From assembly GCA_018971065.1 (NCBI GenBank), contig JAGWVC010000072.1, forward strand, positions 1 through 20,650: DNA of 20,650 bases, in the 5' to 3' direction. The notes beneath the pieces were generated by a model that made no database searches, was not told the DNA's origin, and was given only the letters and a program-made list of their open reading frames with translations. The stretch is from Sphingomonadales bacterium (lineage in GTDB: Bacteria > Pseudomonadota > Alphaproteobacteria > Sphingomonadales > Sphingomonadaceae). Below, one piece after another: positions 2,467 to 19,423 of the stretch. Positions within the stretch are counted from its first letter, which is position 1. Every line of letters begins with the position of its first letter. The translations under genes were made by a program, and so were the position numbers.

Positions 2467-3420
2467 ATGTCCAGCGCCAACGAAAGCACGCTGCTGCGCG
2501 CCTATGGCCAGTTGCAACTGATCCGCCAGGCCGAGGAACGGCTGTCCGCGCTGTTCGCCGCTGGCGAAGTGCCCGGTTTCATTCACCTTTCGATCGGGCA
2601 GGAAGCGGTCTCGGTCGGCGTCATGCAGGCGTTGACGGATGCCGACACCATCGCCTCCACCCATCGCGGCCACGGCCACGCGCTGGCCAAGGGCGTCGAT
2701 CTCTCCGGCTTCTTTGCCGAACTGCTGGCGCGCGGCACCGGCCTGTGCGGCGGGCGGGGCGGCTCGATGCACGTTGCGGACATGCGCGTCGGGATGCTGG
2801 GCGCCAACGGCATCGTCGGTGCCGGCCTGCCCATCGCGCTCGGCAGCGCGCTCGCGCACCGCAACCGCCGCACCGGCGGCGTCGCGGTGGCGTTCTTTGG
2901 CGACGGCGCGCTGGCCGAAGGCGTCCTTCACGAAACCGCCAACATGGCCGCGCTGTGGAAGCTGCCGCTGCTGCTGGTCTGCGAAGCCAACGGCTGGAGC
3001 GAATTTTCCGCCGTCCGCAAGCAGATCGCCTTCGACCTGCCCGCCTGGGCCGCCGCCTACGGTATTCCGCACGTCGAAGTGGACGGCAACGACGTTGAAG
3101 CGGTCGCTGCCGCCGCCGAAACCCTTGTCCGCGCCATCCGCAGCGGCAGCGGCCCGATGCTGCTCGAATGCCGCACCACCCGCATTCGCGGTCATTATGA
3201 AGGCGACGCGCAGAAATACCGCGCGGCCGAAGCGCTGCCGACCGATCCGCTCACCGTCGCTGCCGGCCGCCTGGCCGCGCAAGGCGTATCGCAACCCGAA
3301 CTCGACCGCATCGCCACCGATGTCACCGCCCGCATCGATGCCGCCGTCGCCGCCGCGCGCGCCGCGCCGCCGGCCAGCTTTGCCGCCGCCCGCGCCGACG
3401 TCTATGCGGGGGCATTGTGA
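2467..3420 (+). CDS. Thiamine-diphosphate-dependent 2-oxoacid/acetoin dehydrogenase E1 component, alpha subunit
   Basis: The E1-alpha subunit (317 residues) binds thiamine diphosphate and decarboxylates or cleaves a keto substrate, passing the acyl group to E2 lipoate. The ThDP motif starts with GDG at residues 145-147 and ends with Asn 175 (LLLVCEANG), the standard GDG-x(~27)-N spacing. STHRGHGHALAKG (64-76) and GLCGGRGGSMHVAD (92-105) are characteristic of the AcoA and bacterial pyruvate dehydrogenase E1-alpha group. The length suits AcoA, with no mitochondrial-type extension. The start ATG follows an AGGGGA about 12 bases upstream. The stop shares one base with the ATG of the E1-beta gene. 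Family membership is clear. True acetoin dehydrogenase activity is not: the companions here are beta-oxidation genes rather than acoX or acoR, so a different keto substrate is likely. Confidence 0.92.
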   Translation: MSSANESTLLRAYGQLQLIRQAEERLSALFAAGEVPGFIHLSIGQEAVSVGVMQALTDADTIASTHRGHGHALAKGVDLSGFFAELLARGTGLCGGRGGSMHVADMRVGMLGANGIVGAGLPIALGSALAHRNRRTGGVAVAFFGDGALAEGVLHETANMAALWKLPLLLVCEANGWSEFSAVRKQIAFDLPAWAAAYGIPHVEVDGNDVEAVAAAAETLVRAIRSGSGPMLLECRTTRIRGHYEGDAQKYRAAEALPTDPLTVAAGRLAAQGVSQPELDRIATDVTARIDAAVAAARAAPPASFAAARADVYAGAL

Positions 3421-10473: not shown

Positions 10474-11132
10474 CCGCGCGCCCCGAACAGCGCACTCCCC
10501 ACCCGCACGTGCGTCGCGCCCAGCAGGACCGCGGTCTCGAAATCGTCGCTCATCCCCATCGACAGGCCGGTGATGCCGTTATCGTCGGCCAGCTTGCCCA
10601 GCAGCGCAAAGTACGGCGCCGCCTCGGTTCCCACCGGCGGCACGCACATCAGCCCGGCCAGCGGAAGGTCCGCCGCGCGTGCCTCGGCCAGCAGCGCGGG
10701 CAGGTCGCCGATCGCACAGCCGCCCTTCTGGTCCTCGCCGCCGATGTTGACCTGCACGAAACACGGCACCCGCCGCCCGGCCTTGTCCATCGCGCGTGCC
10801 AGCGCATTCACCAGGGAAACCCGGTCCAGCGAATGAATCGAGTCGAACAGCGTGACCGCGTCCTCGGCCTTGTTCGACTGCAACTGGCCGACCAGATGCA
10901 GTGCCACGCCGGGAAACCGCTCACGCAACGCGGGCCACTTCGCCTGCGCTTCCTGCACCCGGTTCTCGCCGAACACGCGGTGCCCGGCCACCAGCAACGG
11001 CACAATCGCTTCGGCGGGATGAGTCTTGCTCACCGCCACCAGCGTCACTTCGGCTGCTTCGCGCCGCGCGATCCGGCAGGCGGAGGCAATGCGGTCGTTC
11101 ACGGCGCTGAGCAGTTCGGCTGGTTCGATCAT
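10470..11132 (-). CDS. yggS: YggS/PLPBP-family pyridoxal-phosphate homeostasis protein
   Basis: This 220-residue protein binds PLP without known catalytic activity and buffers vitamin B6 and amino/keto acid pools. The family is recognisable from LVAVSKTHP with PLP Lys36, FGENRVQEAQAKW, LHLVGQLQSNK, LMCVPP and the C-terminal MGMSDDFETAVLLGATHVRVGSALFG. It heads the biotin operon and overlaps bioF by four bases. Because BioF and BioA are both PLP enzymes, the linkage suggests coordinated supply of PLP to biotin synthesis; that is inference. No clear ribosome site precedes the ATG at 11132. The start region is shared with the divergent ThiE-like gene, and a GCTATAGC at 11141-11148 in the gap could be part of a promoter. 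Confidence 0.93.
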   Translation of the reverse strand: MIEPAELLSAVNDRIASACRIARREAAEVTLVAVSKTHPAEAIVPLLVAGHRVFGENRVQEAQAKWPALRERFPGVALHLVGQLQSNKAEDAVTLFDSIHSLDRVSLVNALARAMDKAGRRVPCFVQVNIGGEDQKGGCAIGDLPALLAEARAADLPLAGLMCVPPVGTEAAPYFALLGKLADDNGITGLSMGMSDDFETAVLLGATHVRVGSALFGARG

Positions 11133-11157
11133 GGCGCGGTGCTATAGCGCTGCCGAA

Positions 11158-11691
11158 ATGAAGCGCCACCCTCGAATCCCCGCAATCTGGCTGGTCAGCG
11201 ATGCCCGCAACGACGCGTGCGTCGAAGCCGCGTTGCGCAAACTGCCGCGCGGTTCGGGCTTCATCTTCCGCCACCACCACCTGCCCGAACCGCAGCGCCG
11301 CACCCGCTGGCAGGCGCTGCGCCGCCTTGCCCATGCCAATGGCCACCTCGCCATCCTTGCCGCCGGCCCCGCGCAAGCGCGCCACTGGCGGGCCGACGGC
11401 GCCTATGGTCCACCCGCGCGGCTTGCCCCCGGCCCGGCGTTGCTGCGGCTGGTCACCACGCACGGCCTCCACGAACTGCTTGCAGCTCGCCGCGCCCGCG
11501 CCGATGCCGTGCTGCTCTCTCCGGTCTACCCCACCCGCACCCATCCCGGCGCGCCGTCGCTTGGCCCCATCCGCTTCCGCGCGCTCGCCTGCCACGCGGG
11601 TATTCCCGTCATCGCGCTGGGCGGCATGACCGCGCATCGCGCCCGCGCCCTGCGCATCGCGCACTGGGCCGCCATCGACGGCCTCTCCTGA
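11158..11691 (+). CDS. Thiamine-phosphate-synthase-like (ThiE/TenI fold) protein, degenerate
   Basis: The 177-residue product carries the C-terminal half of the ThiE/TenI barrel. DAVLLSPVYPTRTHPGAPS matches the family's GPVFPTxTK region and PVIALGGMTAHRARAL matches its phosphate-binding PVVAIGG strand. The N-terminal half is weaker: IWLVSDARND replaces the usual LYLVTD with its downstream substrate residues, and the HLGQxD pyrimidine-binding motif reads GAYGPPA. It is also short for ThiE (about 210 residues). It may be a TenI-like or otherwise repurposed barrel rather than a working thiamine phosphate synthase. ATG 11158 is chosen for the N-terminus before the first beta strand; ATG 11131 is possible and would overlap the divergent yggS start. 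No strong ribosome site precedes either codon. Confidence 0.75.
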   Translation: MKRHPRIPAIWLVSDARNDACVEAALRKLPRGSGFIFRHHHLPEPQRRTRWQALRRLAHANGHLAILAAGPAQARHWRADGAYGPPARLAPGPALLRLVTTHGLHELLAARRARADAVLLSPVYPTRTHPGAPSLGPIRFRALACHAGIPVIALGGMTAHRARALRIAHWAAIDGLS

Positions 11692-11712: not shown

Positions 11713-11742
11713 TTGACGGCGAGTCGCCACCGGGCGCATTAG
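11713..11742 (+). promoter_or_regulatory. Possible promoter upstream of ftsK
   Basis: TTGACG at 11713-11718 is a good -35 match, and CATTAG at 11737-11742, 18 bases on, is a weak -10 match. If used, the whole bipartite repeat at 11739-11845 would be in the ftsK leader RNA. The -10 match is poor and overlaps the edge of the repeat, so this is tentative. Confidence 0.25.
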
Positions 11743-11845
11743 AGTGCGATGACAAAAAGTGGGCACCGGTTTTTGGCAATAAATCGCACGGCAACAATAG
11801 CTAGAGCATGATGACATTGGTCAATCCAATGTCATCATGCTCTAG
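11739..11845. repeat. Bipartite palindromic intergenic repeat, copy A
   Basis: Module 1 starts TTAGAG and contains outer arms GTGCGAT (11744-11750) and ATCGCAC (11783-11789). These enclose inner arms CAAAAA (11753-11758) and TTTTTG (11770-11775) around the loop GTGGGCACCGG. After a linker (GGCAACAATAG), module 2 is a perfect 20-bp inverted repeat, 11801-11820 against 11826-11845, with a 5-base loop TCAAT; it begins CTAGAGC and ends GCTCTAG. The element lies between the ThiE-like gene and ftsK. Copy B at 17779-17884 has the same layout. The AAAAAGTGGG-ACCGGTTTTT type of core is familiar from other alphaproteobacterial intergenic regions, from memory. No run of T follows module 2, so it is not a textbook intrinsic terminator. 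Confidence 0.9.
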
Positions 11846-11875
11846 AACAAACGGACACTCGGGGACGTCTTCGTC

Positions 11876-14242
11876 ATGGCATCACGCGCCTTTCCATCGC
11901 AGGGCACCGGCCCCGCCAACTGGCGCATCGTGCTGCGCCGCGCGGTGCGTCGCAGTGTCGAGCTGATCGGCGCGCTGGGCCTGTTCGGCCTGATGCTGTT
12001 CCTGGGCACCGCGCTGGCCACCTATCACCAGACCGATCCGTCCGCTTCCACCGCCGCCGGCGGTGAAGTGCTGAACTGGCTGGGCGCGCCCGGCGCCTGG
12101 GCGGCCGAACGCGTGCTGTTCCTGTTCGGCTGGGTCGCCATTCTGCTGCTGCCCTTGCTCTACGTCTTCGCCCGCAAGCTGTGGCGGCTGGCGGAAGAGG
12201 AGGACGACGCCGAACTCACCCCGCTGCACCAGCGCTGGTGGCGCCCGCTGGGGCTGCTGGCCTTTGCCATGTCGCTGATCGCCACCACGCTCAGCCTGCT
12301 GTTTTCCGAACCCGGCGGCACGCTTCCTGCATCGATGGGCGGAATCTCGGGCCTGCTCGGTGCGTTCGCCGTCCACAGCCTCGCCGCGCTGCTTCCCGCT
12401 GCTGTCCAGCCGTGGGCCGCTTTTGCCGCCGGCGTCGTCACGCTGGCCTGCGGCCTTGCGCTGGCCGGGCGTGTCTTCGCGGTGGACTGGATCGCGCTGC
12501 TGACGCTGCCCGGCCGCCTGCATCGCAACCCCGCCACCGCGCTGGCTACCCCGCTGACCAGGCCGCCCCGCGCGAAGCCGGTCGCATCCGAATCCGAGCC
12601 GATTGAGGATGCGCCGCTGGCCGAAGCCGCCATCGCCGGCGCGCTGACCCGCAAGGCGGTGGAAATCAGCGATCCCGCCAACGCCAGCAAGGCCGCGGCG
12701 CCGAAACGCCAGCGCGACCTGTTCGAGAAGCACGCGCTGCCCGGGCTGGACCTGCTTGACGATCCGCCCCCCGGCAACCAGCCGAAGATCGACAAGCTGG
12801 CGCTGGAACGCAACGCCCGCCTGCTGGAAACCGTGCTCGACGATTTCAACGTCAAGGGCGAGATTCAGGCGGTCCGCACCGGCCCGGTCGTCACCATGTA
12901 CGAGCTGGAGCCTGCGCCCGGGGTCAAGGCCGCGCGCGTCATCGGCCTGGCCGACGATATTGCCCGTAACATGTCGGCGATCTCGGCGCGCGTCTCGTCG
13001 ATCCCGGGTCGCACCGTCATGGGCATTGAGCTGCCCAATGCCGATCGCCAGATGGTCAGCTTCAAGGAACTGATCGCGTGCGAGAAGTTCGCCGCCAGCC
13101 GCGCGCTGCTGCCTATCATCCTCGGCAAGGACATCGCCGGTGAGCCGATCGTGGCCGATCTGGCGGCCATGCCGCACCTGCTGGTGGCCGGCACCACCGG
13201 CTCGGGCAAGTCGGTCGGCCTCAACGCCATCCTGCTGTCGCTGCTCTACCGCCTGACGCCCGACGAATGCCGCCTGATCCTGGTCGATCCCAAGGTGCTC
13301 GAACTCAAGTCCTACGACGATATTCCCCACCTGCTCTCACCGGTCGTCACTGAGCCGGCCAAGGCGGTCCGCGCGCTGAAGTGGGCGGTCGAGGAGATGG
13401 AGCGCCGCTACCGCCAGATGTCGTCGGTCTCGGTCCGCAACATCACCGGCTTCAACGACAAGGTCCGCGCCGCCATCGCCAAGGGCAAGCCGCTGGGTCG
13501 CCGTGTCTCGATCGGGTTCGACCAGGACACCGGCGAGGAGATGTTCGAGGAGGAACAGTACGATTACGCGCCGCTGCCGCTGATCGTCGTCATCGTCGAT
13601 GAGCTGGCCGACCTAATGGTCACCGTCGGCAAGGAAATCGAAGTGCTGATCCAGCGCCTCAGCCAGAAGTCGCGCGCCGCCGGTATCCACCTGATCATGG
13701 CCACGCAGCGCCCGTCGGTCGATGTCATCACCGGCGTCATCAAGGCCAACCTGCCCACCCGCATCAGCTTCGCGGTCACCAGCCGCATCGACAGCCGCAC
13801 CATCCTGGGCGAACAGGGCGCCGAACAACTGCTGGGCAAGGGCGACATGCTCTACAAGCCCAACAGCGCCCCGGTGCTGCGCGTCCACGGCCCGTTCGTC
13901 TCGGACGAGGAGGTGGAGAAGGTTGCCGATCACTGGCGCGCGCAAGGGTCGCCGGCCTACGTCGATTCGGTCACCGAGGAACCCGAGGAAGCGATGTTCG
14001 GCTTCGACGACCTCGACGCCACGGCTTCGGACAACCCGGACGAGCGCAAGTACCGCCAAGCCTGCCACATCGTCTTCGAAAGCCAGAAGGCGTCCACCTC
14101 GTGGCTGCAACGTCAATTGGGCGTCGGTTACAACACCGCCGCGAAGTGGATCGAGCGCATGGAGCAGGACGGCTTCGTCGGCCCTGCCAACCACGTCGGC
14201 CGCCGCGAGATCTATCGCGACACCGACGGGAATCCGCTTTGA
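11876..14242 (+). CDS. ftsK: DNA translocase FtsK (cell division, chromosome segregation)
   Basis: FtsK anchors at the division septum and pumps DNA toward dif during chromosome dimer resolution. The 788-residue protein has four hydrophobic stretches near 28-50, 80-100, 125-143 and 158-197, a fairly short linker, then the motor. PVVTMYELEPAPGVK marks the alpha/beta motor start. Walker A is GTTGSGKS at 439-446, LILVDPKVLELKSYDDIPHL follows, and Walker B is LIVVIVDELAD with Asp575/Glu576. ATQRPSVDVITGVIKANLP and FAVTSRIDSRTILGEQGAE are strongly conserved. The C-terminal winged-helix gamma domain (about 724-788, SWLQRQLGVGYNTAAKWIERME) reads the polar KOPS-type motifs. A GGGGA site lies 10 bases before the ATG. 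The gene appears monocistronic, separated from the ThiE-like gene by the repeat and from the dioxygenase gene by 101 bases. Confidence 0.97.
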   Translation: MASRAFPSQGTGPANWRIVLRRAVRRSVELIGALGLFGLMLFLGTALATYHQTDPSASTAAGGEVLNWLGAPGAWAAERVLFLFGWVAILLLPLLYVFARKLWRLAEEEDDAELTPLHQRWWRPLGLLAFAMSLIATTLSLLFSEPGGTLPASMGGISGLLGAFAVHSLAALLPAAVQPWAAFAAGVVTLACGLALAGRVFAVDWIALLTLPGRLHRNPATALATPLTRPPRAKPVASESEPIEDAPLAEAAIAGALTRKAVEISDPANASKAAAPKRQRDLFEKHALPGLDLLDDPPPGNQPKIDKLALERNARLLETVLDDFNVKGEIQAVRTGPVVTMYELEPAPGVKAARVIGLADDIARNMSAISARVSSIPGRTVMGIELPNADRQMVSFKELIACEKFAASRALLPIILGKDIAGEPIVADLAAMPHLLVAGTTGSGKSVGLNAILLSLLYRLTPDECRLILVDPKVLELKSYDDIPHLLSPVVTEPAKAVRALKWAVEEMERRYRQMSSVSVRNITGFNDKVRAAIAKGKPLGRRVSIGFDQDTGEEMFEEEQYDYAPLPLIVVIVDELADLMVTVGKEIEVLIQRLSQKSRAAGIHLIMATQRPSVDVITGVIKANLPTRISFAVTSRIDSRTILGEQGAEQLLGKGDMLYKPNSAPVLRVHGPFVSDEEVEKVADHWRAQGSPAYVDSVTEEPEEAMFGFDDLDATASDNPDERKYRQACHIVFESQKASTSWLQRQLGVGYNTAAKWIERMEQDGFVGPANHVGRREIYRDTDGNPL

Positions 14243-14292
14243 TTGAGAAAGATCAACGAACCCCTGCTCGAATCACGCCATCTCCCGCTCAT

Positions 14293-14306
14293 TGAACAGG
14301 TGTTCA
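14293..14306. promoter_or_regulatory. Perfect dyad upstream of the dioxygenase operon, putative operator
   Basis: TGAACA-GG-TGTTCA is a perfect 6-base inverted repeat with a 2-base centre, 37 bases before the dioxygenase start codon. Short dyads of this size in such positions are usual for dimeric regulators (TetR, GntR or similar). No regulator gene is adjacent, so the factor is unknown. It could also be a chance palindrome. Confidence 0.45.
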
Positions 14307-14343
14307 GCGCATCCCGCGCTGCACCTCCGACGGGAGACATGCC

Positions 14344-15192
14344 ATGAACGTGATGACCAAGGCCAAGCTCAAGTACCAGCTCATCAAGCCCAAGATCGGC
14401 GCGCGCATCCTCAACACCAAGGAAGAGCTGCTGTCGGGCGAACTGTCGGCCGAGATCAACGAACTGCTCGAAGATCGCGGCGTCCTCGTGTTCAAGCGCG
14501 TGATGTTCACCGACGCGGAGCAGATGGCCTTCACCAACTCGGTCGGCGGTCTGGCGGACGAAGTGCGCGGTGAACAGGTGTTCAAGATCAGCCTCGACAA
14601 GACCATCAACAAGGAAGCCGTCGAATACCTGAAAGGCTCGCTGTTCTGGCACGTGGACGGCACCATGAACTCGATCCCGATCCGCGGTTCGGTGCTGTCC
14701 AGCAAGGTGCTGCCCACCTGGGGCGGCAACACCGAATTCGCCAACTGCTACACCGCCTACGATGACCTGCCCGAGAACATCAAGGCCGAGATCGACGATC
14801 TGCGCGTCATCCACTCGATGTGGATCTCGCAGCTTTACCATTGCCCGGAACCGACGCTGGAGCAACTGCGCGACTGGCAGTCGAAGGGCGAGGGCGGCAA
14901 GGGTGAGCGCGAGCTGCCGCTGGTCTACAAGCACGCCAACGGCCGCAAGTCGCTGATCCTGGGCAACACCGCCGAATATGTCGTCGGCAAGGGCAGCCAG
15001 GAATCGGCGCGCATCCTGCACGGCCTGCGCGATTTCGCCACCAGCGAACCCTATCACTACGCGCACGAGTGGGAAGTGGGCGACGCGGTGATGTGGGACA
15101 ACACCGGCACGCTGCACCGCGCCATGCCCTATGACCCCGATTGCGGCCGCATGCTGCACCGCACGATCTTCAAGGGCGATAGCTGGGGCTGA
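14344..15192 (+). CDS. TauD/TfdA-family Fe(II)/2-oxoglutarate-dependent dioxygenase
   Basis: Members hydroxylate an unactivated carbon while oxidising 2-oxoglutarate to succinate, often leading to ether, sulfonate or ester cleavage. The 282-residue product has the iron triad His103 and Asp105 in LFWHVDGTM and His258 in WDNTGTLHRAMPYDP. Arg269, 11 residues after His258, fits the 2-oxoglutarate carboxylate arginine, and Arg273 is a further family arginine. The LHRAMPYDP context is closer to TfdA (aryloxyalkanoate) than to TauD. GGGAGA sits 6 bases before ATG 14344. It is the first gene of a likely operon with two acyl-CoA dehydrogenase genes, so the substrate may be a CoA-activatable acid or an ether of one. 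This substrate suggestion is inference; the family assignment is secure. Confidence 0.92.
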   Translation: MNVMTKAKLKYQLIKPKIGARILNTKEELLSGELSAEINELLEDRGVLVFKRVMFTDAEQMAFTNSVGGLADEVRGEQVFKISLDKTINKEAVEYLKGSLFWHVDGTMNSIPIRGSVLSSKVLPTWGGNTEFANCYTAYDDLPENIKAEIDDLRVIHSMWISQLYHCPEPTLEQLRDWQSKGEGGKGERELPLVYKHANGRKSLILGNTAEYVVGKGSQESARILHGLRDFATSEPYHYAHEWEVGDAVMWDNTGTLHRAMPYDPDCGRMLHRTIFKGDSWG

Positions 15193-15204
15193 TCGGCCAC
15201 GCCA

Positions 15205-15226
15205 CCCCTCCCGCTTGCGGGAGGGG
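15205..15226. repeat. GC-rich perfect hairpin (CCCTCCCGC type) between dioxygenase and dehydrogenase genes
   Basis: CCCCTCCCGC (15205-15214) and GCGGGAGGGG (15217-15226) form a perfect 10-bp stem with only two unpaired bases at the tip. It begins 13 bases after the dioxygenase stop. No T-run follows, so it is either an intercistronic processing/stability hairpin or one copy of a dispersed palindromic repeat. Very similar sequences are frequent in sphingomonad intergenic regions, from memory. Confidence 0.75.
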
Positions 15227-15348
15227 CAGGCCGGGCATCGCCGGGCGACTGTTCCATCGCTCCGGCGCTTGACCCGGCGCCGCTCTACCGCAATCCTCTC
15301 GCCCGCAAGCCGCGCGTCGTCTCGCGCGGCAGGGAGAGAAAACCGCCG

Positions 15349-16485
15349 ATGTGGCACGTCCTCGAACCCGATCAGGAAATGCTGCGCGACATGACCGCGC
15401 GCTACCTGGCCGATAACGCCCCGCTGCCCGCGCTGCGCAAGCTGCGCCATGATCCGGCCGGCTTCGAACCCGCCTACTGGACCGGCGGCGCCGAACTCGG
15501 CTGGACCTCGCTGCTGGTGCCCGAGGAACACGGTGGCGGCAGCGTCTCGGGGCGCGGCGCGGTCGATTGCGCGCTGATCGCGTACGAATTCGGCAAGACC
15601 GCCGCACCCGGCCCGCTGCTCGATTGCAACGTTGTCGCCGCCGCGCTCGCCGGCCAACCCGGTGACAACGCCCGTGACGTGCTGGCCGGGATCATCGCCG
15701 GCAGCGTCATCGCGTCCAGCGCGCTGGGCACCGCACCGTGGCAGCGGTCCGATCAGGCCACTCTGCGCGTGCGCCGCGATGGCGCGGATTTCGTGCTGGA
15801 CGGGGCCGTTCGCCCGGTCGAATCCGCCGCCCAGGCGCAGTGGCTGCTGGTCACCGCGCGGGGGGACGACGGGGTGACGCAAGCACTTGTCCCCACCACC
15901 GCCCCCGGGCTGACGATCCGGCCGTTGAAAGGCCTCGACGTCAACCGCCGCTTCTGCTCGGTCGGCTTCGACGGTGTGCGCATCCCCGCCTCGGCACTGG
16001 TGGGTGAACCAGGGCAGGCTGCCGGCCAACTGAACGCCCAGATCGCCAACGCCGCCGTCATCCTCTCGGCCGAAGCGGTTGGAGCGATGGATTCCGCGTT
16101 CGAGATGACGGTTGACTGGGCCTTCCAGCGCTACACTTTCGGCCGTGCGCTTGCCTCGTATCAGGCGCTCAAGCATCGCTTTGCCGACATGAAATCCTGG
16201 CTGGAAGCCAGCCACGCGGTTGCCGACGCCGCCGCCGAAGCCGTGGCCGACGCCACGCCGCTGGCCGCCGAATACACCAGTGCGGCCCGCACCTGGATCG
16301 GTGAGAAAGGCCCGGAACTCGCGCAGGAATGCGTCCAGCTTCACGGTGGCATCGGCGTCACCTACGAGCATGACCTGCACTTCTTCCTGCGTCGCGTCAC
16401 CCTCAACCGCCTGCTCTACGGCACCCCGGCCGAGCATCGGCGCCTGCTGGCCGCCATCCAGATCGAACAGGAGAAGGCAGCGTGA
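15349..16485 (+). CDS. Acyl-CoA dehydrogenase family protein, probable small/non-catalytic subunit of a heteromeric enzyme
   Basis: The 378-residue product has acyl-CoA dehydrogenase architecture: a helical N-terminal domain with LGWTSLLVPEEHGGG near 50-64, a middle beta domain, and a C-terminal helical domain with YTFGRALASYQALKHRFADM and LHGGIGVTYEHDLHFFLRR. The middle-domain signature normally reading TEPxxGSD is lost (SSALGTAPWQRSD), and no catalytic Glu is seen at the usual C-terminal site. This is the pattern of the smaller partner in the alpha2beta2 dehydrogenases of steroid catabolism (ChsE1-E2 and IpdE1-E2 type). The next gene, overlapping by four bases, has the complementary intact features. 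AGGGAGAG lies 10 bases before ATG 15349, just after an 8-bp inverted repeat at 15309-15330. The substrate is unknown. Confidence 0.88.
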   Translation: MWHVLEPDQEMLRDMTARYLADNAPLPALRKLRHDPAGFEPAYWTGGAELGWTSLLVPEEHGGGSVSGRGAVDCALIAYEFGKTAAPGPLLDCNVVAAALAGQPGDNARDVLAGIIAGSVIASSALGTAPWQRSDQATLRVRRDGADFVLDGAVRPVESAAQAQWLLVTARGDDGVTQALVPTTAPGLTIRPLKGLDVNRRFCSVGFDGVRIPASALVGEPGQAAGQLNAQIANAAVILSAEAVGAMDSAFEMTVDWAFQRYTFGRALASYQALKHRFADMKSWLEASHAVADAAAEAVADATPLAAEYTSAARTWIGEKGPELAQECVQLHGGIGVTYEHDLHFFLRRVTLNRLLYGTPAEHRRLLAAIQIEQEKAA

Positions 16486-17747
16486 GCGAGCCCGTTGAAT
16501 CCGTCGAAGCCTTCCGCCTTCGCGCCCGCGAGTGGATCAAGGCCAACCTCGGCCCGGTCCAGCCCTGGGATCTCGACCAGAACTGCGAGAACGACGCGGA
16601 AGAGCTGAAGGCGGTCGCGCGTGATCGCGCCCTGCAGCGCCGGCTTTACGACGGCGGCTTTGCCGGGCTGTGCTTCCCGAAGGAATATGGCGGCCAGGGC
16701 CTGACCCCCGCGCACCAGCGCGCATTCTGCGAAGAGCTTTCCGGCCACGAATACCCGTCGCGCTTCTCGGTGCCCACGTTCTCGCCTTGCGCGTCGATCA
16801 TCCTCGAATGCGGTACGACCGAGCAGAAGGTCCGCCATTTGCCTGCCATCCTGAAGGGCGAGGAAGTCTGGGTGCAGATGTTGTCCGAACCCGGCGGCGG
16901 CTCGGACGTCGCCGGCGCCACCACTTCGGCGGTGCGCGATCCCGAAACCGGCGACTGGATCATCAACGGCTCCAAGGTCTGGACCAGCCGCGCCTGGTGG
17001 GCCGACTGGGGCCTGATCCTGGCGCGCACCAACTGGAACGTGCCCAAGCATCAGGGTCTCACCGTGTTCCTGGTGCCGCTGCAGCAGCCCGCCATAGAAA
17101 TCCGCCGCATCGAACGCCTGAACGGTGAAAGCGAGGCCTGCGAGGAATTCCTCACCGACGTCCGCGTTCCCGACGATTGGCGGATGAGCGAGATCGACGG
17201 CGGGTGGACCGTCGGCCAGCGCTGGATGTTCCATGAGCGCATGGGCCACAACTCGCCGTGGGTGACGCGGCCGGTCGGTTTCACCCAGGCCGAGACGAAG
17301 GAGCCCACGCTTGTCGCCGTCGCCCGCCGCTCGGGTCGGCTCGACGATCCCGCCGCGCAGGAACTGATCGGCGAGGGCCGGGCGCTGAAGATCGTCACGC
17401 ACGAACTCCAGCGCCGCATCGGTGCCGCCGCCGCCTCGGGCAAGGGCAACCTCGACCTGTCCTCGATCGATCGCCTGTTCCGGGGCCTTGCCGGGGTCCG
17501 GCAGGCGACCATCGCGCTGGAACTCGCCGGCAGCGACGCCGCCGCCTGGACCGACGAGGAAGAGGACGACACCGGCGCCCAGGGGATGCGCTACCTGATG
17601 CGCCAGGTCGGGTGCATCGGCGGCGGCACCACCGAAATCTCGCGCAACGTCGTCGCCGAGCGCGTGCTGGGGATGCCGCGCGAACCGTCGGGCGACAAGG
17701 GCGTGCCCTTCCGCGACGTGCCGCGCGGGCCTTCGCGAAAAGGCTGA
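16482..17747 (+). CDS. Acyl-CoA dehydrogenase family protein, probable large catalytic subunit of a heteromeric enzyme
   Basis: The 421-residue flavoprotein has FPKEYGGQGLTPAHQRAFCEE near 65-85, the FAD/substrate signature MLSEPGGGSDVAGATT near 133-148, the WIINGSKVWTSRAWWADW strand and a C-terminal GGGTTEISRNVVAERVLGMP. The C-terminal position of the usual Glu is Gly, as is common in FadE-type steroid dehydrogenases. Glu252 in FHERMGHNS is placed in the helix-G region where such enzymes keep their base. The GTG start at 16482 overlaps the upstream dehydrogenase stop (GTGA), and AGGAG lies 8 bases before it, so equimolar coupled synthesis with that partner is likely. Together they would form a two-gene heteromeric acyl-CoA dehydrogenase following the TfdA-like dioxygenase. 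The basic C-terminal tail (SRKG end) is unremarkable. Confidence 0.9.
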   Translation: MSEPVESVEAFRLRAREWIKANLGPVQPWDLDQNCENDAEELKAVARDRALQRRLYDGGFAGLCFPKEYGGQGLTPAHQRAFCEELSGHEYPSRFSVPTFSPCASIILECGTTEQKVRHLPAILKGEEVWVQMLSEPGGGSDVAGATTSAVRDPETGDWIINGSKVWTSRAWWADWGLILARTNWNVPKHQGLTVFLVPLQQPAIEIRRIERLNGESEACEEFLTDVRVPDDWRMSEIDGGWTVGQRWMFHERMGHNSPWVTRPVGFTQAETKEPTLVAVARRSGRLDDPAAQELIGEGRALKIVTHELQRRIGAAAASGKGNLDLSSIDRLFRGLAGVRQATIALELAGSDAAAWTDEEEDDTGAQGMRYLMRQVGCIGGGTTEISRNVVAERVLGMPREPSGDKGVPFRDVPRGPSRKG

Positions 17748-17778
17748 GCCATACAGGCGCCGGCGTTTTCGCGACGGT

Positions 17779-17884
17779 TTAGAGCATCGTGCGAAAAAGT
17801 GGGAACCGGTTTTTCGCTTAAAACGATGCGACAACAAACAAGTAGAGCGGGCTGACGTTTCAGATTTCACGCAGCCCGCTCTAG
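17779..17884. repeat. Bipartite palindromic intergenic repeat, copy B
   Basis: Module 1 starts TTAGAG and has outer arms GCATCGT (17784-17790) and ACGATGC (17823-17829). Inner arms are GCGAAAAA (17791-17798) and TTTTTCGC (17810-17817) around the loop GTGGGAACCGG. Module 2, after a GACAACAAACAAG linker, is an imperfect hairpin with a perfect 12-bp outer stem, TAGAGCGGGCTG (17843-17854) against CAGCCCGCTCTA (17872-17883). Spacing within module 1 is the same as in copy A at 11739-11845 although the stem sequences differ. It lies between the large dehydrogenase gene and the chemoreceptor gene. Confidence 0.9.
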
Positions 17885-17995: not shown

Positions 17996-19423
17996 ATGCA
18001 GGTGATGCAAACCCCGTTCATCACGTTCTCGGACGAAAACTACGCTTCGTTCGCCGACATCCGCACCCAGCTCGACCGGCACGGCGACAAGGCACTGGCC
18101 ACACTGTACCGCCGCATCGCCTTCCACCCCGAGACCGCCAAGCTGCTGCCCACCGACGACAAGCGCCACCGCGCCGCCACCGCACAGCTCAAGCACTGGC
18201 GCGCGCTGTTCGCGTCGGCACGGCTCGACGAGGCCGCACGTGAACGCTCCGCGCTGGTCGGCCGCCGCCACGCCCAGATCGGCCTGGCCCCCGAATACTA
18301 TATCGGCGGCTATGCGCTGGTGCTTGAAGAACTGATCATGGGAATGCTGGGCAGCCTGATCCCCGGCAGCAAGCGCCGCGCCCGCGCCGTCGCGGCGATG
18401 GTCAAAGCCGCGCTGTTCGACATGGAAGCGGCGCTGCTGGCCTACTTCAAGGCCGAGGATGAAAACCGCAGCAAGGTCATCGGCGAACTGGGCAAGGCGC
18501 TGGGTGCCCTGTCCACCGGCGACCTGCGCGCCGAACTGGCCAATCTTCCGGCGGCCTATGACCGGATCGCCCAGGATTTCCATGCCATGCGTTATGCGAT
18601 GTCCAGCCTGGTCATCCGCATCACCGATGCCGCCGACGGCATCCGGACCGGCGCCGCCGAGATCAGCTCGGCCTCGAACGACCTGGCGCACCGCACCGAG
18701 CACCAGGCTGCCGGCCTGGCCGACATCGCCACCCTGCTCGGCGATCTCACCGCCTCCGTCGAAACCACCGCTGGCAGTGCGCAACTGGTCAACGCCACGG
18801 TTGGCGAAGTCGATGAACACGCCCGCAACGGCGGCCGCATCGTCGAATCCGCCGTGGTTGCAATGGACAAGATTCGCGGCAGCTCCGAGGAAATTTCCAA
18901 AATCCTCGAAGTGATCGAGGCGATCGCGCTGCAAACCAACCTGTTGGCGCTGAACGCCGGGGTGGAGGCCGCGCGCGCCGGCGAGGCCGGCAAGGGCTTC
19001 GCGGTCGTCGCCAACGAGGTTCGCGCCCTGGCGCACCGCACCACCGATTCGGCCCGGGTGATCAAGGAACTGATCAACAAGTCCAGCGAGGACGTTCACG
19101 AAGGCGTCGATCTTGTTGCCCGCACCGGCGAGGCGCTGCGCTCGATCATCGAGACCGCCGACCGCGCCACCGGGCAATCACGCGAGATCGCGGACTTCGC
19201 CTCGCGCCAGTCCGACGCGCTTGGCCGGGTCAACCAGCAGATCAAGCAGATCGACCTGAACACGCAGCAGAACGCGGCGATGTCCGAACAGGCCAACGCC
19301 GCCGCGCGCGCGCTGGCCCAGCAATCGGCCGAACTGGCCCGCGTCGTCAGCCAGTTCCGCTTCGAACGCCGCGAAAAGCGCCGGGACGAGCGGGAAGGCC
19401 GGGAGGCCCGTCGGGCCGCCTGA
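17996..19423 (+). CDS. Globin-coupled methyl-accepting chemotaxis protein (HemAT-like soluble oxygen sensor)
   Basis: The 475-residue protein joins an N-terminal sensor globin (about 5-155) to a methyl-accepting signalling domain. The likely heme proximal ligand is His92 in [18 protein letters not shown], the conserved F-helix/G-helix stretch of globin-coupled sensors. A HAMP-like linker follows (about 163-210, [17 protein letters not shown]), then a long coiled coil with the hairpin tip [18 protein letters not shown] (313-330) and [15 protein letters not shown]. No transmembrane segment is visible, so it should be cytoplasmic and sense O2, NO or CO through heme. The C-terminus is a basic tail without a CheR/CheB-docking pentapeptide. 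ATG 17996 is preferred over an upstream TTG because GGAAGG lies 7 bases before it. No che genes are in the window, so its signalling partners lie elsewhere. Confidence 0.94.

Follow-up and report, generated by a model that had tools for sequence, protein, structure and literature searches.

The window analysed here, 20,650 nucleotides of contig JAGWVC010000072.1 from a sphingomonad, carries two similar palindromic elements between its genes, and the question is what kind of element they are, how they reached their sites and what keeps their arms paired. A preliminary description had reported two bipartite elements, and both were located at the coordinates that it gave, on the + strand and in intergenic positions. 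From sequence comparison, we consider that they very probably belong to an alphaproteobacteria-wide family of non-autonomous miniature transposons of the IS630 type (IS630/Tc1-mariner-type), similar to the Caulobacter CcrM-associated intergenic repeats (CIR). Their parts are the following.

11740..11844, + strand: copy 1, whole bipartite element from TA to TA, 105 bp; absent in the relative L001.
11740..11741, no strand: left TA of copy 1, presumed target-site duplication with 11843-11844; L001 has GCATTA and then diverges.
11744..11789, + strand: copy 1, module 1 hairpin with GTGCGAT/ATCGCAC as its arms and the apical core at 11756-11772; 66.7 bits with model R1.
11802..11844, + strand: second hairpin (module 2) of copy 1, reading TAGAGCATGATGACATTGG inward from the right end, to be compared with the IS630 end TAGAGCATGATGATATTA in L508.
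11843..11844, no strand: right TA of copy 1.
17780..17883, + strand: copy 2, whole bipartite element from TA to TA, 104 bp, with full-length relatives on Sphingobium plasmids.
17784..17829, + strand: copy 2, module 1 hairpin with GCATCGT/ACGATGC as its arms and the apical core at 17796-17812; 76.6 bits with model R1.
17843..17883, + strand: module 2 hairpin of copy 2, with GAAAC at nt 23-27 from the right end, where many relatives have GANTC.

Copy 1 is flanked by a TMP-TENI gene (11131-11691) and ftsK (11876-14242), and copy 2 by the genes of an acyl-CoA dehydrogenase (16482-17747) and a protoglobin/MCP protein (17996-19423). Module 1 is 46 nt long in both copies, exactly as had been described, and module 2 is a second hairpin with a GCTCTA end. 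Position 23 counted from the right end reads GACCA in copy 1 and GAAAC in copy 2, neither with a GANTC. Rfam gave no family at or above its gathering score in the window. By their FtsK proteins, the relatives of the window are Novosphingobium/Erythrobacteraceae-like sphingomonads, the closest one (91% protein identity) being the metagenome bin L001/G001.

A search with a covariance model was among the checks proposed for the element, and model R1, built on module 1, produced many further copies: 300 of the 313 model matches in the fetched loci were unique, 298 of them beyond the two of the window. Both modules are present in 104 distinct copies (modal length 104, window copies included), a number that depends on the rule applied (1 with a strict finder, 18 with a relaxed one, 104 with a looser one) and that includes a few chance right ends, because the rule that defined them was permissive (TA, no more than two mismatches). 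Copies within one genome are kin, in such a way that the counts given here are not independent and are inflated by kinship. The core pattern AAAGTGNGNANCGGTTT was found in 34 of 149 genomes of the family (up to 17 per genome) and in 28 of 385 of the class (up to 47 per genome); some of its single matches are due to chance, because the reversed pattern also gave 3 and 7 single matches, respectively. Under stricter filters, and with at most 37 candidates scored per genome, model R1 detected copies in 17 of 142 class genomes. On plasmids, the same model found 44 matches in pSymB and 10 in pSymA of S. meliloti 1021 (54 in total), 3 and 5 on Terrarubrum plasmids, and none on p42f and pNL2. BLAST with copy 2 matched 25 plasmid records. 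In 15 the match covers 80% or more of copy 2 at 78-86% identity; Sphingobium accounts for 12 of the 15, four of these 12 being nearly one same plasmid, and full-length copies are present on Sphingobium megaplasmids. Of 167 copies checked with a crude gene caller, 4 were placed within a gene and 27 had a flank missing.

Other arrangements of the repeat were also observed. Module 1 alone forms tandem arrays with periods of 52-60 bp (G096 C1:879299-879551, L089, L095 and L124). On a single contig of 3.74 Mb in G164, the + strand carries 30 of the 31 hairpin copies among the matches listed (37 of 1444 candidates scored), and 10 of 11 BLAST matches listed, read in one sense, are also on a single strand. 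The exact 18-mer core occurs in 76 stretches of IMG/VR viral contigs, some with two or three copies.

Comparison of filled and empty sites bears directly on the origin of the copies, as the empty sites show a single TA where the filled ones have TA...TA. On pTomTYG46a (site A) the element lies within the stop codon of TomTYG46_32220 (CDS end at locus position 3003, match from 3001), and three related plasmids, those read among nine listed two-piece matches above 95%, are empty and have a TGA stop at the same place; by eye, removing the element and one TA makes the lengths equal, with two bases different. On pTomTYG64a (site B) the filled sequence reads CATTTA, the element and then TAGAGGCG, versus CATTTAGGGGGCG and CATTCAGGGGGCG in two empty relatives. 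The empty relatives match the inferred target at both plasmid sites except for a few bases. L001 has no counterpart of window copy 1; it reads GCATTA at the left junction, and the right side is diverged. A TA duplication, as predicted for an IS630-derived MITE, was thus read at sites A, B and window copy 1 with small flank differences, and duplication of the TA target would be the simplest reading of these filled and empty pairs, none of which is a perfect match. A further site (L433) was too diverged to be read as filled or empty, and site C was rearranged. In G245 a recent burst was detected, with 20 loci whose flanks differ (5 hold complete, near-identical copies of 104 bp and 15 run off contig ends), and a search for empty sites in its relatives found no orthologous site.

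Insertion at a TA could be harmless at gene ends. The G that follows the left TA makes TAG, in such a way that insertion into a TAA or TAG stop would leave the encoded protein unchanged; as the stop is regenerated, copies can survive there. A co-directional gene lies upstream of 101 of the 167 copies, and in 29 of these 101 its stop codon is formed by the first three bases of the element. The flanks were resolved for 70 bipartite copies; of these, 28 occupy the TA of a stop codon versus 19.9 expected from random intergenic TA (sd 2.0), a modest excess obtained with the crude gene caller, and 27 lie in convergent gaps versus 5 in divergent ones. Such insertion would be a low-cost way of spreading for a bacterial element.

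A segment of around 850 bp, bounded by CTAGRGCATGATCATG and enclosing an annotated membrane protein gene, was seen in L463 (approximately 948-1810) and L436. It occupies the place where another plasmid has a 106-bp repeat, contains CGTC-type REPs (by eye), and is possibly a cargo-bearing relative of the repeat.

The termini point to the type of enzyme. In 280 copies, GCTCTA (up to one mismatch) is concentrated at 53-56 nt beyond the hairpin (88 copies), a peak that three control words do not show; TAGAGC, with which module 2 begins, has its own peak at 17-21 nt. The IS630 element of G523, of 1055 bp, itself ends in TAGAGC...GCTCTA, and that of G245 is broken, with TAGAGC at its promoter-side end and two candidate left ends (TAGAGC at 945 and TAGACT at 1387). 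The transposase of G523 has matches in 51 of 240 class genomes. Searches with PF13358 (IS630) found the domain in 5 of 14 repeat-bearing genomes and no current IS630 helper in the other 9, and the idea of a helper in every repeat-bearing genome was rejected.

We examined 48 IS630 loci, 30 from the survey with the G523 transposase and 18 from the PF13358 search. Most have no clean end pair, and an exact TAGAGC/GCTCTA pair surrounds the transposase gene in 13 of them. Fifteen elements, two of them copies of one, were chosen by size (1015-1070 bp) and TAGA ends, leaving out other subgroups, fragments, contig ends and one 808-bp pair (L472). Each of the 15 has, at one end, a GANTC whose first base is exactly nt 23, and the excluded L472 has it too. 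Among named plasmid IS630s, 5 of 6 have ends of this kind, and the site is present in those of Sphingobium, Sphingomonas, Rhizobium and Methylobacterium; Paracoccus has GGGTC, and the end search found no end pair in the Mesorhizobium element. Once the promoter side was set by the transposase strand, read from its own motif, 18 of 19 distinct IS630s (19 of 20 counting the second copy of one) had the nt-23 GANTC at their promoter-side end, and none had it at the far end.

The same site is present in the repeats. Counted from the right end, nt 23 is the start of a GANTC in 41 of 104 bipartite copies, versus a mean of 0.25 at 40 other positions, with one case at nt 22 and none at nt 24. It is present in 37 of the 86 repeats with the clearest right ends and in 31 of 87 distinct 30-nt right ends. 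The 41 copies come from nine source groups; the 63 copies lacking the site include those of the window, and it is absent from eight groups, among them the window, the 13 plasmid copies and G245. The likeness goes beyond this site: 24 of the first 27 nt agree by eye between repeat L522 and IS630 L495, and identity with an IS630 promoter-side end is at least 15/22 for 21 of the 87 distinct right ends (0.0000 in shuffled controls). With the far ends, 12 of 87 reach it, also above the shuffled level, although in this comparison the ends of L494 and L465 were swapped. By contrast, none of 81 left ends reached 15/22 with IS630 ends, with no likeness past TAGAGC. The two ends of one element resemble each other more than those of different elements (5.48 of 11 positions alike versus 3.94; 0 of 500 shuffles). 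The apex of module 1 falls on nt 23 of the left end, where GANTC at nt 23 or 24 was found in 12 of 104 copies, mostly kin, and never together with the right-end site.

Terminal repeats in common with IS630, expected of an IS630-derived MITE, are therefore present as TAGAGC ends plus the nt-23 site, the left end contributing only TAGAGC. From the likeness of the right end and its lack on the left, module 2 looks like a palindromised promoter-side end of IS630, and module 1 like a rebuilt hairpin which shares with the IS630 end only TAGAGC and perhaps the position of nt 23. An IS630-family transposase supplied in trans would bind both ends and insert the element at a TA.

The strongest competitor of this transposon reading starts from the structure of module 1. 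The preliminary description had interpreted the changes in its arms as compensating, and the covariation data bear this out. In 57 of the 81 unique copies found by pattern, an alignment selected partly by foldability and with a core invariance partly forced by the search pattern, the covariation score was 0.481 versus 0.134 after shuffling, a value reached in 0 of 500 shuffles. In the same copies 94.6% of the cells pair, against 41.7-50.2% in slid controls, and all 7 pairs of the outer arms vary on both sides. Selection on structure or a spread that keeps palindromes, as had been proposed, is hence supported for module 1 by many copies and strong covariation. The claim of a fixed unpaired loop, on the other hand, did not hold, because the minimum-energy fold of the GTGGG(C/A)ACCGG apex is itself a short stem (U.G, G-C and x-y) closing a loop of 3 nt, in which x and y covary. 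In the 81 unfiltered copies x/y is G-C in 61, T-G in 8, G-T in 3, C-G in 2 and others in 7. Among 215 unique model-found copies it is paired in 208, versus 145.5 after shuffling, with a marked asymmetry in wobbles (T.G plus G.T 29, A.C plus C.A 1), and in 64 copies chosen by model or BLAST, with no pattern, 62 pair and the wobble ratio is 6 to 1. A folded top strand is expected to produce such a bias, in such a way that the conserved "loop" can be re-read as a structured apex with strand preference, and selection acting on the top strand in its folded form, as RNA or as single-stranded DNA, may preserve module 1.

Two further signals were discarded: a GNA triloop in 81% of the 215 copies, inflated by a search pattern that fixes the G and the A (32 of 64 in copies not chosen by pattern), and, as support for RNA, an excess of G.U over A.C in the arms, where the mismatches show no strand asymmetry (G.T 14, A.C 18). 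In L278 (2125-2197) and L279 (1582-1655) a much longer apical stem separates GTG from CGG, and so the apex can grow if paired.

On these grounds, module 1 could be a cis-acting structured RNA hairpin of mRNA leaders or trailers whose dispersal is secondary, a reading that we regard as unlikely although the best of the alternatives. The two-sided variation of the outer arms and the pairing and wobble asymmetry at x/y fit it, as do the copies located, by eye, just upstream of rpsL, rplQ, rpsD, ribE and tRNA genes. In addition, the Brucella sRNA BASRCI27 (RF02600) aligns at relaxed thresholds over both modules of both copies (E 0.0023 and 5.3e-5), although with 24.0 and 30.0 bits versus a gathering score of 59.8 neither copy reaches membership. 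However, the form upstream of rpsL was found in 2 of 30 rpsL loci of the family and in none of the 22 class loci in which the start was found, the arm mismatches lack strand asymmetry, the orientation relative to neighbouring genes is only weakly biased (45 (+,+) versus 27 (-,-) of 167), and the empty sites indicate gain by insertion. A general leader of ribosomal protein genes, considered at first from 8 hairpins upstream of rpsL, was rejected as clade-limited on these rpsL counts. The copies next to these genes could be cases of local co-option.

Several placements of this kind were noted. In sphingomonads, module-1 hairpins stand 14-54 nt upstream of start codons (genes by eye) in L085, L112, L114, L127, L129-L132 (rpsL), L109 (rplQ), L110 (rpsD) and L124-L125 (ribE). 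At the rpsL loci a second variable hairpin follows module 1, and co-option as a leader is possible. Others lie directly 5' of tRNA genes, by eye, in L321 and L324 (G046) and in L158.

Alternatively, the covariation could be mutational, with template switching between the arms keeping imperfect palindromes perfect without any selection. This would account for arms whose sequence varies freely while pairing stays, and also for arm mismatches with no strand asymmetry, but a U.G pair beside the apex and the top-strand asymmetry of the closing pair are unexpected from arm copying alone, and we give it slightly less credit than the RNA reading. Spread by a palindrome-copying enzyme such as a RAYT-like transposase had also been suggested, and of this proposal the enzyme-driven spread stands, whereas the evidence names a DDE, TA-target transposase of the IS630 type in place of a RAYT. 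The repeats are palindromic and intergenic and form tandem module-1 arrays with a 59-bp period, as REPs copied by a Y1 transposase could, but the TA duplication and terminal inverted repeats suit a DDE enzyme, the ends are TAGAGC/GCTCTA and not the GTAG/CGTC tags that mark one end of REP palindromes of 20-40 nt, and a CGTC-type repeat (by eye) lies nearby as a separate element. Moreover, the part of the literature consulted reports alphaproteobacterial CGTC repeats as unlinked to transposase genes (PMC3733652), and with the empty sites weakening it further, this origin is very improbable. Two chance palindromes are refuted by the 298 further unique copies, the full-length named copies and the empty sites, leaving that reading practically no probability.

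Returning to the IS630-type miniature transposon, its anatomy has a precedent. The preliminary description knew of no described function, which holds for function; the anatomy matches published repeats, the CIR1-4 of Caulobacter, described in the available part of the source as of around 110 bp, with two inverted repeats and a linker, TA ends and GANTC in one loop, and with mobility called unknown (PMC2229807). The size and the two inverted repeats with linker are found in both window copies and in the 104 bipartite copies, the TA at both termini in the repeats here, and the intergenic location in both window copies, a likeness by description and not by sequence. A GANTC in the terminal loop is absent from the window copies and present in 41 of 104 repeats, so those of the window are named CIR-like and not CIR. 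A second difference from the CIR as described there is that IS630 ends were found here. Chen and Shapiro (2003) reportedly gave the original description of CIR1-4 and noted their CcrM sites without explanation.

Other systems show partial likeness. RUP of pneumococcus is a non-autonomous element of 107 bp with ends like those of IS630-Spn1 and a TA target (PMC2229807). It works in the same way as we propose for the repeats here, but no bipartite hairpins or GANTC are mentioned in the portion of the source at hand, and the repeats are not members of RUP. The host of RUP belongs to another phylum. The Bru-RS of Brucella are described, in the text available, as palindromic intergenic repeats of 103-105 bp (PMC2267715), similar to those here in these three aspects by description, not by sequence. 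The S. meliloti matches of model R1 may have a parallel in the Rhizobium intergenic mosaic elements (RIME). RIME are said to have been described by Osteras in 1995.

The fixed position of GANTC suggests a broader, tentative proposal, to which we give somewhat less than even chances: alphaproteobacterial IS630s and their two-hairpin miniatures may have, in the end with the transposase promoter, a CcrM site at the fixed position nt 23 that couples movement, and transposase expression, to the cell cycle, and the CcrM sites of CIR would be inherited transposon-end signals. CcrM is an alphaproteobacterial enzyme, and the Dam-regulated IS10 and IS50 likewise have a methylation site in the transposon end; here the site is GANTC and the effect on transposition is putative. 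The proposal offers a reason for the CcrM sites in such repeats, and the transposon reading a concrete candidate mover for those of Caulobacter and Brucella, here found also in rhizobia and sphingomonads. In the parts consulted of PMC2229807, PMC10969869, PMC2267715, PMC3733652, PMC2873474, PMC9296519 and PMC5172544, a scope outside which most subscription papers fall, the original CIR description among them, we found no link of these repeats to IS630 and no explanation of the GANTC.

A second GANTC, usually GGATTC, was also seen at nt 34-38 of the promoter-side ends in 12 of the 15 chosen IS630 elements. As a single control, the gammaproteobacterial IS630 of Azotobacter (L652), with TAGAGC ends, has AGTTT at nt 23 and no GANTC, as expected from this one case if CcrM is the reason for the site.
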